A DNA stretch of 53,496 nucleotides from Verrucomicrobiota bacterium. GTDB lineage: Bacteria > Verrucomicrobiota > Verrucomicrobiia > Opitutales > Opitutaceae. Numbering within the stretch: position 1 is the first letter of the stretch; each line of letters begins with the position of its first letter. The stretch lies in the NCBI GenBank assembly GCA_028293565.1, contig JAQGON010000099.1, positions 1-53,496 on the forward strand, in the 5' to 3' direction. The notes beneath the pieces were generated by a model. That model was not told the origin of the DNA and ran no database searches. It was given only the letters and a program-made list of their open reading frames with translations. The position numbers were made by a program, and so were the translations under genes. This document shows, one piece after another, positions 29,095 through 42,672 of this stretch.

Positions 29095-30486
29095 ATGCCC
29101 ACCTCCTTCGCCGCGATGCGGCGCACCGTTTCGTCCGGGATCGGGATCATGCTGGCGCTCGCCGTCGTTTCGTCGATCGGCATTGCGCTGCTGCCCGCGC
29201 ACCACACGGCCGGGCTTCAGGCGTGGGCCTTCGATGCGGGACATGTGGACGTCTACAATCTCGTGGTCCCGTCCTGGAACCAACGTCATCCCGACCACCC
29301 GCTCAACGTCTCCCTGCTGCTGGGCCCCGCCCTACAGACGCGGATGATGTCGGGCTTCTACGCCGGCACGCCGGTCGCCGACCTCCTCGAGATCGAGCGC
29401 ATGCAGGCCGGCCCGGTTTTCGCGGGGCCGCTGGCTGACATCGGCTTTGTCGACCTCACCGACCGCCTGCGCCGCGAGGGGCTGATCGACGGGATCAACG
29501 CGGCGTCGTTCAGCCCGTGGACCACCCGCGGCCACATCTTCGGCCTGCCCCACGACGTCCATCCGGTGATGCTCGCGTACCGCTGCGACCTCGTCGAAGC
29601 CGCGGGAATCGACGTCTCCAAAATCGAGACGTGGGACGACTATTTCCGGGCGATGCGTCCGCTGATGCGCGACACCGACGGCGATGGCCGCGTCGACTGC
29701 TATCCGCTCAACGGCACCTACGCCAACTCGACGACCACCGAGGTGATCATGCTCCAGGCCGGCGGGACGCTCTTCGACGACCACGGCCAGCCCCTCCTCG
29801 ATTCGGACGTCAACGTCGACATCCTCGCCCGGCTCGCGACCTGGTTCGGCGGCCCGAACCGCGTCACCCTCGACGTCAACATCGCCTCGAAGTCCGGACT
29901 CATGCTGATCCACGCCGGAGCCGTCCTCGGCGTGATCGTGCCCGATTTTTCCGCGGGCTCGATGGTCGTCTTGCTGCCGATGCTGGCCGGGAAATACAAG
30001 CTGATGCCCCTGCCCGCCTGGGAGAAAGGCGGGCGGCGCACCTCCGTCCAGGGCGGCACGATGATGGGGATCGCGCGCTCGACGCCCGACGTCGACCTCG
30101 CGTGGGCGGCGCTGAAGCACCTTTATCTTTCGCCCCTCGGCGCCGAGCGTCTTTTCCTCGACCGCGGAATCGTGACCCCGGTGAAGGCCAGCTGGAGCAA
30201 TCCGGTCTTCGACCGGCCGAGCGCCTATTTTTGCGGGCAGCCGATCGGGCGGATGTACCTGCGGCTCGCGCCCGACGTGCCGCTGCGCCCCTCGTCGCCC
30301 TACTACAGCCAGGCGATCAACCGCCTCGGAAACATCGAGAACGAGCTCGCGAACCTGGCCGCCGACAAAAACATCGGCGACCCTGCGGAACTGAAGCCGC
30401 TCGCCCGCCGGCTCCTCGCGGCCGCGCAGCAGGACCTCCAGGCCCAGATCAACCGGAATGTCTTTCTCGGCGGTCGCTCACGATGA
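29095..30486 (+). CDS. ABC sugar transporter substrate-binding protein
   Basis: 463 aa. A hydrophobic segment at about 15-33 acts as a signal peptide or membrane anchor; no lipobox cysteine is evident. The mature part looks like a family-1 extracellular solute-binding protein: FYAGTPVADLLEIERMQAGPVFAGPLADIGFVDLTDRL, then LPHDVHPVMLAYRCDLVEAAGIDVSKIETWDDYF and a late MMGIARSTPDVDLAWAALKHL. It captures a sugar or oligosaccharide in the periplasm; the ligand cannot be read from sequence. The stop overlaps the permease ATG (ATGA). No ATPase gene is in the cluster, so a shared MsiK/MalK-type ATPase elsewhere is expected. Confidence 0.88.
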   Translation: MPTSFAAMRRTVSSGIGIMLALAVVSSIGIALLPAHHTAGLQAWAFDAGHVDVYNLVVPSWNQRHPDHPLNVSLLLGPALQTRMMSGFYAGTPVADLLEIERMQAGPVFAGPLADIGFVDLTDRLRREGLIDGINAASFSPWTTRGHIFGLPHDVHPVMLAYRCDLVEAAGIDVSKIETWDDYFRAMRPLMRDTDGDGRVDCYPLNGTYANSTTTEVIMLQAGGTLFDDHGQPLLDSDVNVDILARLATWFGGPNRVTLDVNIASKSGLMLIHAGAVLGVIVPDFSAGSMVVLLPMLAGKYKLMPLPAWEKGGRRTSVQGGTMMGIARSTPDVDLAWAALKHLYLSPLGAERLFLDRGIVTPVKASWSNPVFDRPSAYFCGQPIGRMYLRLAPDVPLRPSSPYYSQAINRLGNIENELANLAADKNIGDPAELKPLARRLLAAAQQDLQAQINRNVFLGGRSR

Positions 30487-31379
30487 AGTCCTTCCGGCCC
30501 CACCCTCCTTGGATTCCGTGGCTGTTCCTGTCGCCCTTCTTGGTCTTCTTCGCGCTTTTCGCGAGCTGGCCCGTGGCGCGTTCGCTGATGCTCGCGTTCG
30601 AGCAGACCTACGGTCCGCGGACGAAGGCCTTTGTCGGCCTGCTCAATTTCCAGGCGGTGTGGCACGATCCCTATTTCTGGACGGCAGTGCGCAACACGCT
30701 GCTCTTCACCGGCGGCACGCTCCTCGTGCAGATTCCGCTCGCGCTCGGGCTCGCGCTGCTGATGAACCGGCCGCGGCTGCGGGGACGCGCCGCGTTTCGC
30801 CTCCTGTTTTTTTCGCCGTCGATCATCGGCTTCGTTTTCGCCGGCACGCTTTTCTTCCTGCTGCTGGAAAAACGGATCGGCCTCCTGAATGCCGGGCTGC
30901 ATACGGTGTTCTCGCACTGGGATCCGGATTTCCCGTGGATCGACCACTACGTGATGACCTCCCTGATCATCGCGTCGGCCTGGCTGTCCGCGGGCTTCCA
31001 CATGGCGTACCTCCTCGCGGCGCTGCAGAATGTCTCCGGCGACCTCCTCGACGCGGCGGCGATCGACGGCGCGGGACCCTGGCGTCGTTTCTGGCATGTG
31101 ACGCTTCCCGGGATCCGCCCGGTGCTGGAGGTGCTCGTGCTGCTGACGCTGATCACGGGTTTCCAGGTCTTCGACCTGCCGTTCATCTTCTACAACGACA
31201 GCATGGGGAACGGGCCGAACAACCAGGCATTGACCATCGTCACGTACCTCTACCAGACCGGGTTCATCGCCGGAAATCTCGGCTATGCCAGCGCGATCGG
31301 CTGGCTGCTGACGCTCGCGCTGATCGGCCTCGCGCTGGCGCACCGCCACCTCACGCGCACGGAGGACCCCAGCCGATGA
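30483..31379 (+). CDS. ABC sugar transporter permease (MalF/UgpA type)
   Basis: 298 aa with about six membrane helices. The EAA loop that contacts the ATPase reads AAAIDGAGPWRRFWHVTLPGIRP in the C-terminal third. The N-terminal FLSPFLVFFALFASWPVARSLMLAF is characteristic of MalF/UgpA-type permeases. The ATG lies within the ATGA overlap with the binding-protein gene, and its own stop overlaps the next permease in the same way, so the three are translationally coupled. Confidence 0.93.
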   Translation: MKSFRPHPPWIPWLFLSPFLVFFALFASWPVARSLMLAFEQTYGPRTKAFVGLLNFQAVWHDPYFWTAVRNTLLFTGGTLLVQIPLALGLALLMNRPRLRGRAAFRLLFFSPSIIGFVFAGTLFFLLLEKRIGLLNAGLHTVFSHWDPDFPWIDHYVMTSLIIASAWLSAGFHMAYLLAALQNVSGDLLDAAAIDGAGPWRRFWHVTLPGIRPVLEVLVLLTLITGFQVFDLPFIFYNDSMGNGPNNQALTIVTYLYQTGFIAGNLGYASAIGWLLTLALIGLALAHRHLTRTEDPSR

Positions 31380-32227
31380 TCCGCCGACGGCTTGGCCGCG
31401 GGCTGCTGATGATGGTGCTGGTTACGTTCGGCGCCCTCACGCTGCTGCCCTTCGTCTGGATGGTCTGCGCGGCGGTGAAGACCCCCGCGGATTTCATCGC
31501 GTACCAATTCCTTCCGGGGGGCCCGGGCTTTCTCGGCATCGCGTGGGACCGCCTGACGACCGCCAATTTTTTCCGCGCCTTCACCGTCCTCCCGATGGGA
31601 CGCGCGCTGCTGCACTCGGTCTTCCTCGCGTCGGTCACGAGCGTGCTCTCGACCCTCTGCTGCTCGGCGGGCGGATATGCGCTCGCCAAATTCCGTTTCG
31701 CCGGCCGCGGATTCATCACGACGCTGGTTCTCGGCACCGTGGTTCTGCCTGCGGCGCTGCTGCTCGGCCCGAGCTTCGAGACGGTCTACCACCTCGGCCT
31801 CGTCGACACCTACGCCGCGGTCATCCTGCCGGCGCTGACCCCGGCGTTCGGAATTTACCTGTTCCGCCAAGCGATGCTGAACAGCGTTCCGTCCGAGCTG
31901 ATCGAGTGCGCGCGGCTCGAAGGCTGCGGCGAGATCCGGATCTTCGTCGAAATCGTCGTGCCGCTCGTCCGCCCGATGATCGGCACCTACCTCGCGCTCG
32001 CGTTCATCGGGAGCTGGAACAATTTCCTGAATCCACAGGTGATGCTGCAGTCTCCCGAGCGGTATCCGCTGTCGGTCGCGATCTTCAACCTTCGCGGGCT
32101 GTACGGGTCCGATTACGGCCTGATCATGGCCGGGATGCTGATCTCGGTGGCGCCCGTGATGTGTCTGTTTCTCGTGCTCCAGCGCGAATTCATCTCCGGC
32201 CTCACCAGCGGCGCCGTCAAAGGCTGA
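31376..32227 (+). CDS. ABC sugar transporter permease (MalG/UgpE type)
   Basis: 283 aa with about six membrane helices. The EAA loop reads CARLEGCGEIRIFVEIVVPLVRP, and the N-terminal LPFVWMVCAAVKTPADF and central NSVFLAS-like (HSVFLASVTSVLSTLCCSAGGYALAKFRF) pattern are typical of MalG-type subunits. The start is in an ATGA overlap with the preceding permease. The ferritin-like gene begins 82 bp later without a visible terminator between. Confidence 0.93.
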   Translation: MIRRRLGRGLLMMVLVTFGALTLLPFVWMVCAAVKTPADFIAYQFLPGGPGFLGIAWDRLTTANFFRAFTVLPMGRALLHSVFLASVTSVLSTLCCSAGGYALAKFRFAGRGFITTLVLGTVVLPAALLLGPSFETVYHLGLVDTYAAVILPALTPAFGIYLFRQAMLNSVPSELIECARLEGCGEIRIFVEIVVPLVRPMIGTYLALAFIGSWNNFLNPQVMLQSPERYPLSVAIFNLRGLYGSDYGLIMAGMLISVAPVMCLFLVLQREFISGLTSGAVKG

Positions 32228-32309
32228 CCCCTAATTTCCTGCACCTTTGACGGGAAGAATCTGGACGCATCTCGGTCGCCGACCGCCTAAGATGCGGTCC
32301 CCCCACCCT

Positions 32310-33713
32310 ATGAAACATCCTGAAGAAACCGGCGGCCCCGCAGCCGCTCCCACCGCCATCGTCGCGCAGAGCCTGGCCGGGCAGCGCGAGGCCGCCGCGG
32401 AACGCCGGGCCCGCTATCCCTTCCGCTTCCCGACCGACCGCCGCCAGCTCGGCGGGAAGTTCACGGTGAAGGAAAACAGCCGCCGGCTCCTGCGGTTTTT
32501 CTATTTCGAGCGCCGGCTGATGCACGCCCTCGGGTCGTGGACGCTGTCGATCCCGGACTATGAGGTGAAGCTCGAGACCGGCCGCCACATTTTCTACCAC
32601 GCCGACGCCGCGCGCCTGCTCCGCGAGCGCCTGACCGAACAGGAAATGCGCCCGCATGCGGTCGATGCCCACCGCGATCCGGAAATCGACCGCTTCATCG
32701 ACGAAATGCTCAGCGCGCACTCGCCGGCGGAGCTCCTGGTCGGCGTCCACCAGGTGGTCGGGCGCGCCATCGCCACGACTTACCGTCATCATATCGACGA
32801 CACGGACCAGGTGACGGATGTCCCCACGATCCGCTGCCTGCGCCGGATCCTGACCGACTACGAGCCGATGCTCGAATGGGCCGACGCGGCAGTCGAGGCG
32901 TACGTCGCCGGCGGCGAGGACGAGGCGAAGCTTTCGACCTGGCGGTGGCATGTCAGCCGGCTGCTGGCCTCGATCGGCGGGATCGCGGGCGCGGATGCGC
33001 GGGCGGAGGCGCCGAAGCCCCTGCGGATCGACGAAAAGCCCTACGAGCGCGGGACGGTCCCGCGGCGCGATGCGCGGTTCGACACCTTCAAGCACACCGG
33101 CGACTACGAGACGGCCGACAGCGAAAAACGCTACGACAAGGATTCATACGAGGCGATCCGCCTCCGGTTCATCCGGACGCAGCGCGACGAGGTCGATGCG
33201 ATCGAGGCCTTCGGCACGTTTGTCTGGGACATCCGCTTCAAGGATTTCAATGCCGAGTACGACCTCGCCCGGATCACCTGGGACGAGGCGCGCCACACCG
33301 AGATCGGCCACCGTGCGATGCTCGCCTCGGGTTACGATCCCTACGAGCTGCGGAACCGTCTCACCAGCTCGACGTGTCGCGGCCCGATGGACCCGGCGTT
33401 CGCGATGGCGGAGATCAATCTCTTCGGCGAGGTCGGCGTGCTCAAGACGATCAACGACCTGATCGACACCGCGGCCAGCCGGAACGACGAGCTCCTCCGG
33501 CACATCTCCGACTACATCCGCGCCGACGAACGCACGCACGTGCGCAAGGGCACGCGCATTCTCGAGATCATGACCAAGCTCGACGCCAAGGCCCTCGAGC
33601 TGCGCACCCGCGAACTGTTCACCGAGTGCCTCGTGAGCCTCGGCGCCATCAAGAAGGACATCGACATGCAGACGCTGAGCCGCGAGGAGATCGAACACCT
33701 GATCGGCGAGTGA
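32310..33713 (+). CDS. Double ferritin-like (putative diiron) protein of unknown function
   Basis: 467 aa. I do not recognise a named gene. The C-terminal half (about 285-430) has the four-helix carboxylate ligand pattern of a ferritin-like diiron site: E294/E299 on helix 1, E326-AR-H329 on helix 2, E368/E374 on helix 3 and E407-RT-H410 on helix 4. The N-terminal half (about 55-200) has a related pattern (FFYFERRLMHALGSW, KLETGRHIFYHADAARLLRERL, VGVHQVVGRAI, YEPMLEWADAAVEAYV) but with fewer canonical ligands, suggesting a duplicated bundle. No signal peptide. The ATG at 32310 is preferred; 32292 and 32247 are in-frame alternatives. It follows the sugar-importer genes and precedes a strong terminator, so it may be the last gene of that operon. 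Confidence 0.7.
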   Translation: MKHPEETGGPAAAPTAIVAQSLAGQREAAAERRARYPFRFPTDRRQLGGKFTVKENSRRLLRFFYFERRLMHALGSWTLSIPDYEVKLETGRHIFYHADAARLLRERLTEQEMRPHAVDAHRDPEIDRFIDEMLSAHSPAELLVGVHQVVGRAIATTYRHHIDDTDQVTDVPTIRCLRRILTDYEPMLEWADAAVEAYVAGGEDEAKLSTWRWHVSRLLASIGGIAGADARAEAPKPLRIDEKPYERGTVPRRDARFDTFKHTGDYETADSEKRYDKDSYEAIRLRFIRTQRDEVDAIEAFGTFVWDIRFKDFNAEYDLARITWDEARHTEIGHRAMLASGYDPYELRNRLTSSTCRGPMDPAFAMAEINLFGEVGVLKTINDLIDTAASRNDELLRHISDYIRADERTHVRKGTRILEIMTKLDAKALELRTRELFTECLVSLGAIKKDIDMQTLSREEIEHLIGE

Positions 33714-33737
33714 CACGCCCAAAAGTAAGACGCCAAG

Positions 33738-33768
33738 AGGGCGGCCCTTTCGGCCGCCCTTTTTTTTC
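33738..33768 (+). terminator. Strong intrinsic terminator
   Basis: Perfect 9-bp stem AGGGCGGCC (33738-33746) / GGCCGCCCT (33752-33760), loop CTTTC, followed by TTTTTTT. It ends the importer/ferritin-like transcription unit. Confidence 0.92.
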
Positions 33769-41820: not shown

Positions 41821-41931
41821 TTGGGTCTCCGACTCCGACCCATGTTGAAGGACGCGGACCGCGCTTGCCCGTCGCCGCAGCCTTTCGCCGTCGAATGAGT
41901 CCCCCTTCACGGGTCAGGAGACCCGTGCTAC
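41821..41931. repeat. REP-like inverted pair, copy 5 (tandem duplicate of copy 4)
   Basis: The central about 60 bp (CATGTTGAAGGACGCGGACC onward) are identical to copy 4. The left arm lacks GTAG and carries a duplicated CCGACT. The right unit (41908-41931) contains the TGA stop of the thuA-like gene. Confidence 0.85.
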
Positions 41932-42672
41932 CGGCTCTTTCGCCGCGATCGTCTCCAGCGGAAGTTTCGCATTCGGGCACGAGTCGATCCACTGGCCCTG
42001 GGGGCGCGCCCATTCGACGGCGTTCGCGATGACGCGGCGCACGTTCTTGTCGTGGTACGTCGGATAGGTCTCGTGGCCGGGGCGGAAATAAAAAATCCTC
42101 CCGTTGCCGCGATGCCAGCAGCACCCGCTGCGGAAAACCTCGCCGCCTTCGAACCACGAGATGAAAACCTGCTCGTCGGGAGCGGGAATCGCGAAGGGCT
42201 CGCCGTACATCTCCTCCTGCGGCAATTCAAAACAGCGGTCGAGGCCGCGCGCGATCGGATGCCCGGGATTGCACACCCAGAGACGCTCGCGCTCGTCCGC
42301 CTCGCGCCACGTGAGCGAACACGTCGTGCCCATCAGCCGCTTGAAGATTTTCGCGTAGTGGCCGGAGTGCAGGACAATCAGCCCCATCCCCTCGAGCACC
42401 CGCCGCTGCACGCGGTCGACGACCCGGTCGTCCACCTCGCCATGCGCCATGTGCCCCCACCAGACCAGCACGTCGGTCGCAGCGAGCCGCGCCTCGCCCA
42501 ACCCGTGTTCCGGCTCCTGCAGCGTGGCCGTGGAAATTTTCACCCCCGGCAAAAATTCCTGCACGCCCTCGGCGATCGTCGCGTGCATGCCCCGCGGATA
42601 AATTCCGCCCACCTTCGGATTCTTGTGCTCGTGGACGTTTTCGCCCCAGACGACGACTCGCAATGGATTCAT
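41914..42672 (-). CDS. ThuA-family (trehalose-utilisation-like) protein
   Basis: 252 aa with a ThuA/class-I-glutamine-amidotransferase-like fold: [14 protein letters not shown] at the start, [16 protein letters not shown] (about 72-87), [20 protein letters not shown] (about 102-121) and a late [18 protein letters not shown]. ThuA proteins act in sugar (trehalose, keto-sugar) metabolism; the exact substrate is unknown. The last residues (VARVS) and the TGA come from an overlapping REP element, so the native C-terminus may have been replaced. The ATG at 42670-42672 ([10 protein letters not shown]) leaves 53 bp to the divergent radC gene. Confidence 0.85.

Follow-up and report, generated by a model that had tools for sequence, protein, structure and literature searches.

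Why should a ferritin-like protein be encoded directly behind the genes of a sugar importer, and what might such a protein do there? The question is raised by one gene in a stretch of 53,496 nucleotides from a Verrucomicrobiota bacterium (Opitutaceae), which is called the window in what follows. The gene was proposed, from the sequence alone, to be the last before a strong terminator and to follow three transport genes, and both the coordinates and the gene order proved correct:

29095..30486, forward strand: solute-binding protein gene of an ABC importer (SBP_bac_1, Pfam E 1.4e-15)
30483..31379, forward strand: gene of importer permease 1 (BPD_transp_1, Pfam E 9.3e-13), with a 4-bp overlap with the solute-binding protein gene
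31376..32227, forward strand: gene of importer permease 2 (BPD_transp_1, Pfam E 9.9e-15), with a 4-bp overlap with the gene of permease 1
32310..33713, forward strand: gene of the two-bundle ferritin-like protein (467 aa)
33735..33767, forward strand: predicted intrinsic terminator (12-bp stem, 5-base loop, T8; from folding energy)

The reading frame at 32310-33713 is open and conserved, and it is separated from the gene of permease 2 by 82 bp; no ATPase gene was found within 29095-33713. An in-frame TTG at 32247 was considered as an alternative start and rejected, the N-termini of the close orthologues (mostly M-K-x-P) fitting a start at 32310 instead. The terminator stem-loop begins 21 bp past the stop codon and has a folding energy of -23.2 kcal/mol (z -3.4); it is not among the matches of a simple terminator scan.

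The first step towards an answer is the architecture of the protein, which consists of two halves:

32442..33029, forward strand: N-terminal half (residues 45-240), a degenerate ferritin-like bundle without the ligand set
33075..33653, forward strand: C-terminal half (residues 256-448), a bundle with the predicted diiron ligand set

A family alignment comprising 5 orthologues and 44 paralogues (49 rows in all, the paralogues at 19-26% identity to the 467-aa protein) was cut at these boundaries, in the numbering of the 467-aa protein, and its two blocks were compared using hhalign; sequences of less than 330 aa were excluded (none is listed), and those sharing the same last 250 residues were counted once. 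The halves matched each other with a probability of 85% for the whole family and 84% for the columns of the protein itself (E 6e-6 to 7e-6), as against 0.1% for the reversed C-terminal half and 7.5% for the best among 40 block shuffles. The best full-length AlphaFold2 model has a mean pLDDT of 80.2 and a pTM of 0.79, the remaining four models lying at 63-70. The blocks of the C-terminal half reach a pLDDT of 54-91 in that best model and just 54.5 when this half is folded on its own; in the best model, its helices span residues 280-307 (broken), 313-339, 362-390, and 394-421, with the ligand motifs near mid-helix.

Structural comparison using VIA-align gave 3ez0_C as the best match of the N-terminal half (Z 16.3, rmsd 2.3, 171 aligned residues), followed by aldehyde-deformylating oxygenase (Z 15.1), the azoxy synthase VlmB (14.3), chain B of toluene 4-monooxygenase (14.2), and R2lox (13.6); Dps-like proteins and bacterioferritins also match at Z 13-14, the tool itself cautioning that values up to about 13-14 are common among helical bundles. 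The aligned rows cover mainly residues 47-256 and hardly include the C-terminal half, so no structure-based claim is made for the latter. Foldseek returned no match at E<=0.001. Together, these comparisons show that the N-terminal half has a ferritin-like fold and that the two halves arose by duplication. The tandem ferritin-like architecture of the original prediction is thereby borne out by the match between the halves and by the Z-score of the first of them, as is the degeneracy of the N-terminal bundle, in which the family alignment has no ligand set; the structure prediction and fold comparison that it had called for yielded matches to solved ferritin-like folds for the N-terminal half and hardly reached the C-terminal one.

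The second step concerns the metal site. A complete set of diiron ligands had been read from the C-terminal half, with a choice between E294 and E299 for one position and between E368 and E374 for another. In the family alignment, E294, E326, H329, and E374 are invariant in 49 of 49 rows, as are D325 and R328, and E407 and H410 are invariant in 48 of 48, one row ending before them. Position 299 is E in 27 rows, D in 20, and A in 2, which rules out E299 as a ligand, and position 368 is E in just 5 of the 49 rows, namely the orthologues, which rules out E368. The ligands at the two positions in question are taken to be E294 and E374 because these are invariant, whereas positions 299 and 368 vary. 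The complete set itself thus stands and the alternatives fall, which leaves the following predicted ligands:

33189..33191, forward strand: codon of E294, first helix (49/49 rows)
33285..33296, forward strand: codons of E326 to H329, ExxH, second helix (49/49 rows; bacterioferritin motif)
33429..33431, forward strand: codon of E374, third helix (49/49 rows)
33528..33539, forward strand: codons of E407 to H410, ExxH, fourth helix (48/48 rows)

When the orthologue profile is aligned with bacterioferritin over about 100 residues (E 0.08), E326-H329, E374, and E407-H410 fall on its ExxH, E, and ExxH positions, which we take to be its metal ligands; the profile of the C-terminal half alone gives E 0.015. 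The proposal that E326/H329 and E407/H410 belong together agrees with this alignment, in which both pairs lie on ExxH motifs of bacterioferritin. We therefore hold a diiron site in the C-terminal half to be very probable, indeed as certain as sequence allows. A trace of a second site may exist in one group of paralogues (group B), where 16 of 17 rows have a D-E-x-R-H motif at position 183-187 of the N-terminal half, as if the duplicated bundle had formerly held a site of its own.

To which family does the protein belong? DUF455 (PF04305) is matched over residues 295-427 with E 4.6e-7 and 30.1 bits, which is below the cut-off of 34.3, so the protein is classed as a relative of DUF455 rather than a member. 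The relationship extends to the family as a whole: DUF455 is matched by 36 of 36 rows of a family alignment (A1) at E<=0.01, and one paralogue, at locus L069, passes the cut-off (39.2 bits). Neither Ferritin PF00210 (13.9 bits, cut-off 24.5) nor Phenol_Hydrox PF02332 (16.6 bits, cut-off 24.4) is reached; the latter, which comprises diiron hydroxylases, is weakly matched by 13 of the 36 rows of A1. In the open-access literature searched, no function was found for DUF455 or for the family of the 467-aa protein. In an excerpt of one source, DUF455 is tied to a fold solely via designed sequences (PMC4520260), and part of another has it in a coral domain table (PMC6214176).

The distribution of the orthologue is wide and patchy. 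Orthologues are 64-91% identical and scattered across at least eight phyla, going by record titles, and they form a single clade (100/99) on a long branch of the tree, from which this clade alone was used and the order of the long-branch paralogues was disregarded. A scan of genome contigs gave 46 loci, comprising 26 close ones (85-90% identity), titled Opitutae, Opitutaceae, or Verrucomicrobia, and 20 more distant ones (65-76%), titled other Verrucomicrobia, Hydrogenedentota, Armatimonadota (Chthonomonas), Planctomycetota, Omnitrophota, Zixiibacteriota, BRC1 (Sumerlaeota), Latescibacterota, and Chloroflexi; these phyla are those of the record titles, which may be wrong for metagenome bins. 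Within its own genus, the orthologue is present in 11 of 12 genomes, its own included. The sole genome of the genus that lacks it (G001) retains a ThuA gene (a family discussed below) at a contig start, so an assembly gap is possible. At a larger scale, the orthologue is uncommon: 11 of 68 genomes have it in the phylum of genome G337 (titled Hydrogenedentota), 8 of 251 in the phylum of genome G335, and 3 of 288 in a sample of its own phylum, where 22 of 288 have any family match. A plasmid collection contained no match to the orthologue. In its own genome, the orthologue is accompanied by three paralogues.

Does the gene travel with the importer? Of the 26 close loci, 18 have importer genes immediately upstream, and the remaining 8 have a ThuA-family gene in that position (Pfam was run on one of the eight). 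Those importer genes share about 50-74% identity with the ones of the window, as against 85-90% for the ferritin-like protein. In the 20 more distant loci, the window's importer was found in none, within the flanks examined, and a general rule of co-travel with the importer finds no support outside the close group. The original prediction, which expected homologues near sugar importers, is upheld by the close loci; that the gene travels with this importer holds for 18 of them and not as a rule, and that the enzyme acts on the imported compound is favoured by the same 18 loci and opposed by the 20 distant ones. The tie to this particular importer is lineage-specific. A relative of ThuA is present in 24 of the 25 genomes searched, including the one under study, where it lies as follows:

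41914..42672, reverse strand: ThuA-family gene, the genome's only copy, 8.2 kb from the ferritin-like gene, with housekeeping genes between

Within the window, the linkage of ThuA to the ferritin-like gene is suggestive only.

Neighbours were then counted at 32 orthologue loci beyond the close group, in 31 genomes, as genes on the same strand within 400 bp; the count omits two Opitutaceae loci (L071 and L170) as well as L159, regarded as a duplicate of L062. The genes were called by a composition-based caller, and part of the Pfam scans used mostly stop-to-stop frames. Such a neighbour exists at 19 of the 32 loci (24 genes, 14 of them upstream) and is absent from 13, and no gene is a constant partner across the 32 loci. 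The upstream gene is of a carbohydrate type, a category defined post hoc after the neighbours had been viewed, in 9 of 14 cases, or in 7 of 12 if the look-alikes L057/L064 and L160/L161 are counted once. The nine comprise a BPD_transp_2 permease adjoining a two-domain ABC ATPase (L054), Gfo/Idh/MocA (L073 and L165), DUF2961, which we take to denote glycosidase activity (L160 and L161), a GH106 rhamnosidase (L169), a phosphoglucomutase/phosphomannomutase (L060), a DUF4432-like protein below the cut-off (L057), and its BLAST relative without a Pfam match (L064). Upstream genes of other types encode a P450 (L069), a Peptidase_S9-type hydrolase (L158), an aldo/keto reductase (L166), and a protein without a family (L163). 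Downstream are an SBP_bac_5 importer gene (L059) and genes for SDR (L165), Iso_dh (L067), PSD1 (L057), ABM (L056), DUF1326 (L157), and a protein without a family (L068). The neighbours without a Pfam scan include the one upstream of L066 and those downstream of L054 and L166.

As a control, 77 genes at least three places away were picked and 74 scanned: among the matches listed (25 of 138 families), none of the nine upstream families occurs with at least two members. The control also has carbohydrate-type matches (two SIS, one G6PD, one Apiosidase, and the ABC ATPase of L054 itself). An enrichment of carbohydrate-type genes upstream of orthologues is suggestive.

Several individual arrangements were seen in these loci. 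In a genome titled BRC1, a P450 gene, the orthologue, and a paralogue follow one another (L069:3308-7721). Downstream of the orthologue, an ABM-domain gene was called in L055 and L056, with a Pfam match for L056; an iron-containing alcohol dehydrogenase gene, identified by Pfam in L055 and with look-alikes in L056 and L070, is found downstream as well. PhyH-family genes, chosen by eye, are found within 2.5-4 kb of two orthologues (L067:14151-14918 and L169:7985-8758).

The reading that we prefer, with a probability of roughly 0.5, is that the protein would be a diiron oxygenase or oxidase that uses O2, is built of two fused bundles, and acts on sugar-derived metabolites. Its parts differ in strength: that the protein is a redox enzyme using O2 seems likely, and a carbohydrate-derived substrate is slightly favoured. 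Iron as the metal, the activation of O2, the carbohydrate substrate, and the type of reaction are all inferred. Because carbohydrate-type genes of further families are again found as neighbours in other phyla, an oxidase or oxygenase with a sugar-related role fits better than the iron storage that had been named as another possibility.

The same neighbourhoods bear on a first alternative, namely a diiron hydroxylase with a substrate other than sugar (a tRNA base, a cofactor, a lipid, or a protein residue), whose stand-alone modification would explain both the conservation and the patchy, single-copy occurrence. It would account for the 64-76% identity between distant phyla without a constant partner outside the close group, and some neighbours have to do with neither transport nor sugar (Iso_dh, ABM with iron alcohol dehydrogenase, and DUF1326). 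However, carbohydrate-type genes from several families stand upstream in those 9 of 14 cases, and an importer or ThuA accompanies 26 of 26 close loci. We consider this alternative unlikely.

Further evidence comes from the neighbourhoods of the paralogues. All 10 of the group-B copies that bear the group motif are immediately preceded by a PhyH-type gene in the same orientation, as are 11 of 11 if the truncated copy in L079 is included; with this probe, no such gene turned up immediately before any of the other 27 copies. The probe has no row for L121, and Pfam confirmation is for L090 and L075. Group-B clusters also hold genes for AraC-type regulators, sodium:solute symporters, and Gfo/Idh/MocA (Pfam on representatives). 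PhyH genes of another branch adjoin the paralogues of L074, which is in the own genome, and of L078, and in L081 such a gene lies one gene off. In L136, the sole case seen, the gene that begins 13 bp after a paralogue encodes an FAD_binding_6/NAD_binding_1/Fer2 protein, and a zinc alcohol dehydrogenase gene comes next; reductase-type proteins with FAD, NAD, and 2Fe-2S domains are the usual electron donors of diiron oxygenases.

The own genome provides two of these arrangements: on one contig (C181, L075:1617-6290), a PhyH-type gene, a paralogue, and a sodium:solute symporter gene follow each other, and on another (C226, L074:1579-3795), a paralogue lies between a PhyH gene (E 6.4e-35) and an MFS transporter gene. 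Elsewhere (L132:7242-10315), the gene after a paralogue encodes a flavoprotein of the Trp_halogenase family (E 5.5e-93).

The genomes that carry the orthologue also tend to encode a terminal oxidase. In 27 of the 28 carriers tested, subunit I of heme-copper oxidase (COX1) scores above the Pfam cut-off; the exception is G348, whose orthologue is split across two contigs. In the phylum of G337, COX1 is present in 11 of 11 carriers versus 25 of 57 non-carriers (hypergeometric 4e-4, kinship ignored). This link fits an O2-dependent function, yet it would also fit an iron or oxidant-defence protein.

That second alternative, in which the C-terminal bundle would oxidise Fe(II) or remove peroxide in the manner of ferritin, Dps, or rubrerythrin while the sugar neighbours are incidental, has more than the terminal oxidase of all but one of the carriers tested to recommend it, as bacterioferritins are the closest sequence matches among solved structures and the N-terminal half resembles Dps-like proteins and bacterioferritins at the Z of 13-14 given above. 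Against it are the shortfall on PF00210 (13.9 versus 24.5 bits) and the length of 467 aa in two fused bundles, as well as the company kept: paralogues beside PhyH and once a reductase, and carbohydrate genes upstream of orthologues. We regard such a role as improbable. A structural or regulatory protein whose carboxylate/histidine cluster binds metal for stability alone would be in keeping with DUF455 relatives that have no known activity in the open-access literature searched, but it is very unlikely given six ligands that stay invariant at 19-26% identity, where most other residues have changed, and paralogues that sit in operons with redox enzymes.

If the protein is indeed a sugar-related diiron oxygenase or oxidase, its mechanism might be as follows. 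The degenerate N-terminal bundle would support the fold and perhaps form part of the substrate pocket, and the C-terminal bundle would hold two irons via E294, E326, H329, E374, E407, and H410. The diiron centre would activate O2 with electrons supplied by a reductase encoded elsewhere, and a small carbohydrate-derived metabolite would be oxidised or hydroxylated. In Opitutaceae, the substrate might be a product of the importer or of the ThuA step.

A more speculative extension, for which the odds are rather against than for, is that the family constitutes an undescribed class of diiron oxygenases with two fused bundles, which would act on sugars, glycosides, or methylated sugars by hydroxylation or oxidative cleavage; its paralogues would often act in series with PhyH-type dioxygenases, and one highly conserved branch would occur in at least eight phyla. 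Known diiron oxygenases act on hydrocarbons, aromatics, fatty acids, nucleotides, and amino acids. A link to sugar would mean a new oxygenase chemistry for the breakdown of glycans in Verrucomicrobiota, Hydrogenedentota, Planctomycetota, and others, and a widespread enzyme of this kind would hint at a function for DUF455-related proteins. What makes the idea directly testable is that the ligand residues are defined, that paralogues lie in operons, one of which includes a reductase, and that the orthologue is associated with aerobic genomes.

How, finally, does the protein compare with known systems? ThuA (PF06283) is a gene neighbour of orthologues, yet it shares no sequence with the 467-aa protein, and we know of no ferritin-like gene in the described thu (trehalose-utilisation) clusters. 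DUF455 differs from the protein in that the latter has an extra N-terminal bundle. Bacterioferritin (3uof, 3qb9, 2wtl) is alignable with the C-terminal half over about 100 residues with the motifs in register, the match being weak (E 0.015-0.1); its solved chains are single bundles of 161-174 aa, whereas the 467-aa protein has two fused bundles, and bacterioferritin assembles into a cage.

Aldehyde-deformylating oxygenase, VlmB, and R2lox each consist of one catalytic bundle. Their fold is like that of the N-terminal half, with identities of merely 6-14% in the structural alignments, and the half that matches them is the one without the ligand set in the 467-aa protein; the C-terminal half gives a weak match to aldehyde decarbonylase (E 0.13). 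The N-terminal half is also alike in fold to chain B of toluene 4-monooxygenase (rmsd 3.0, 182 aligned residues). Among the neighbours scanned with Pfam, no reductase, effector, or ferredoxin gene was recognised adjoining an orthologue. In the hydroxylases of multicomponent diiron monooxygenases, a catalytic and a non-catalytic bundle lie side by side, and in the 467-aa protein, the equivalent of this pair is fused into a single chain.
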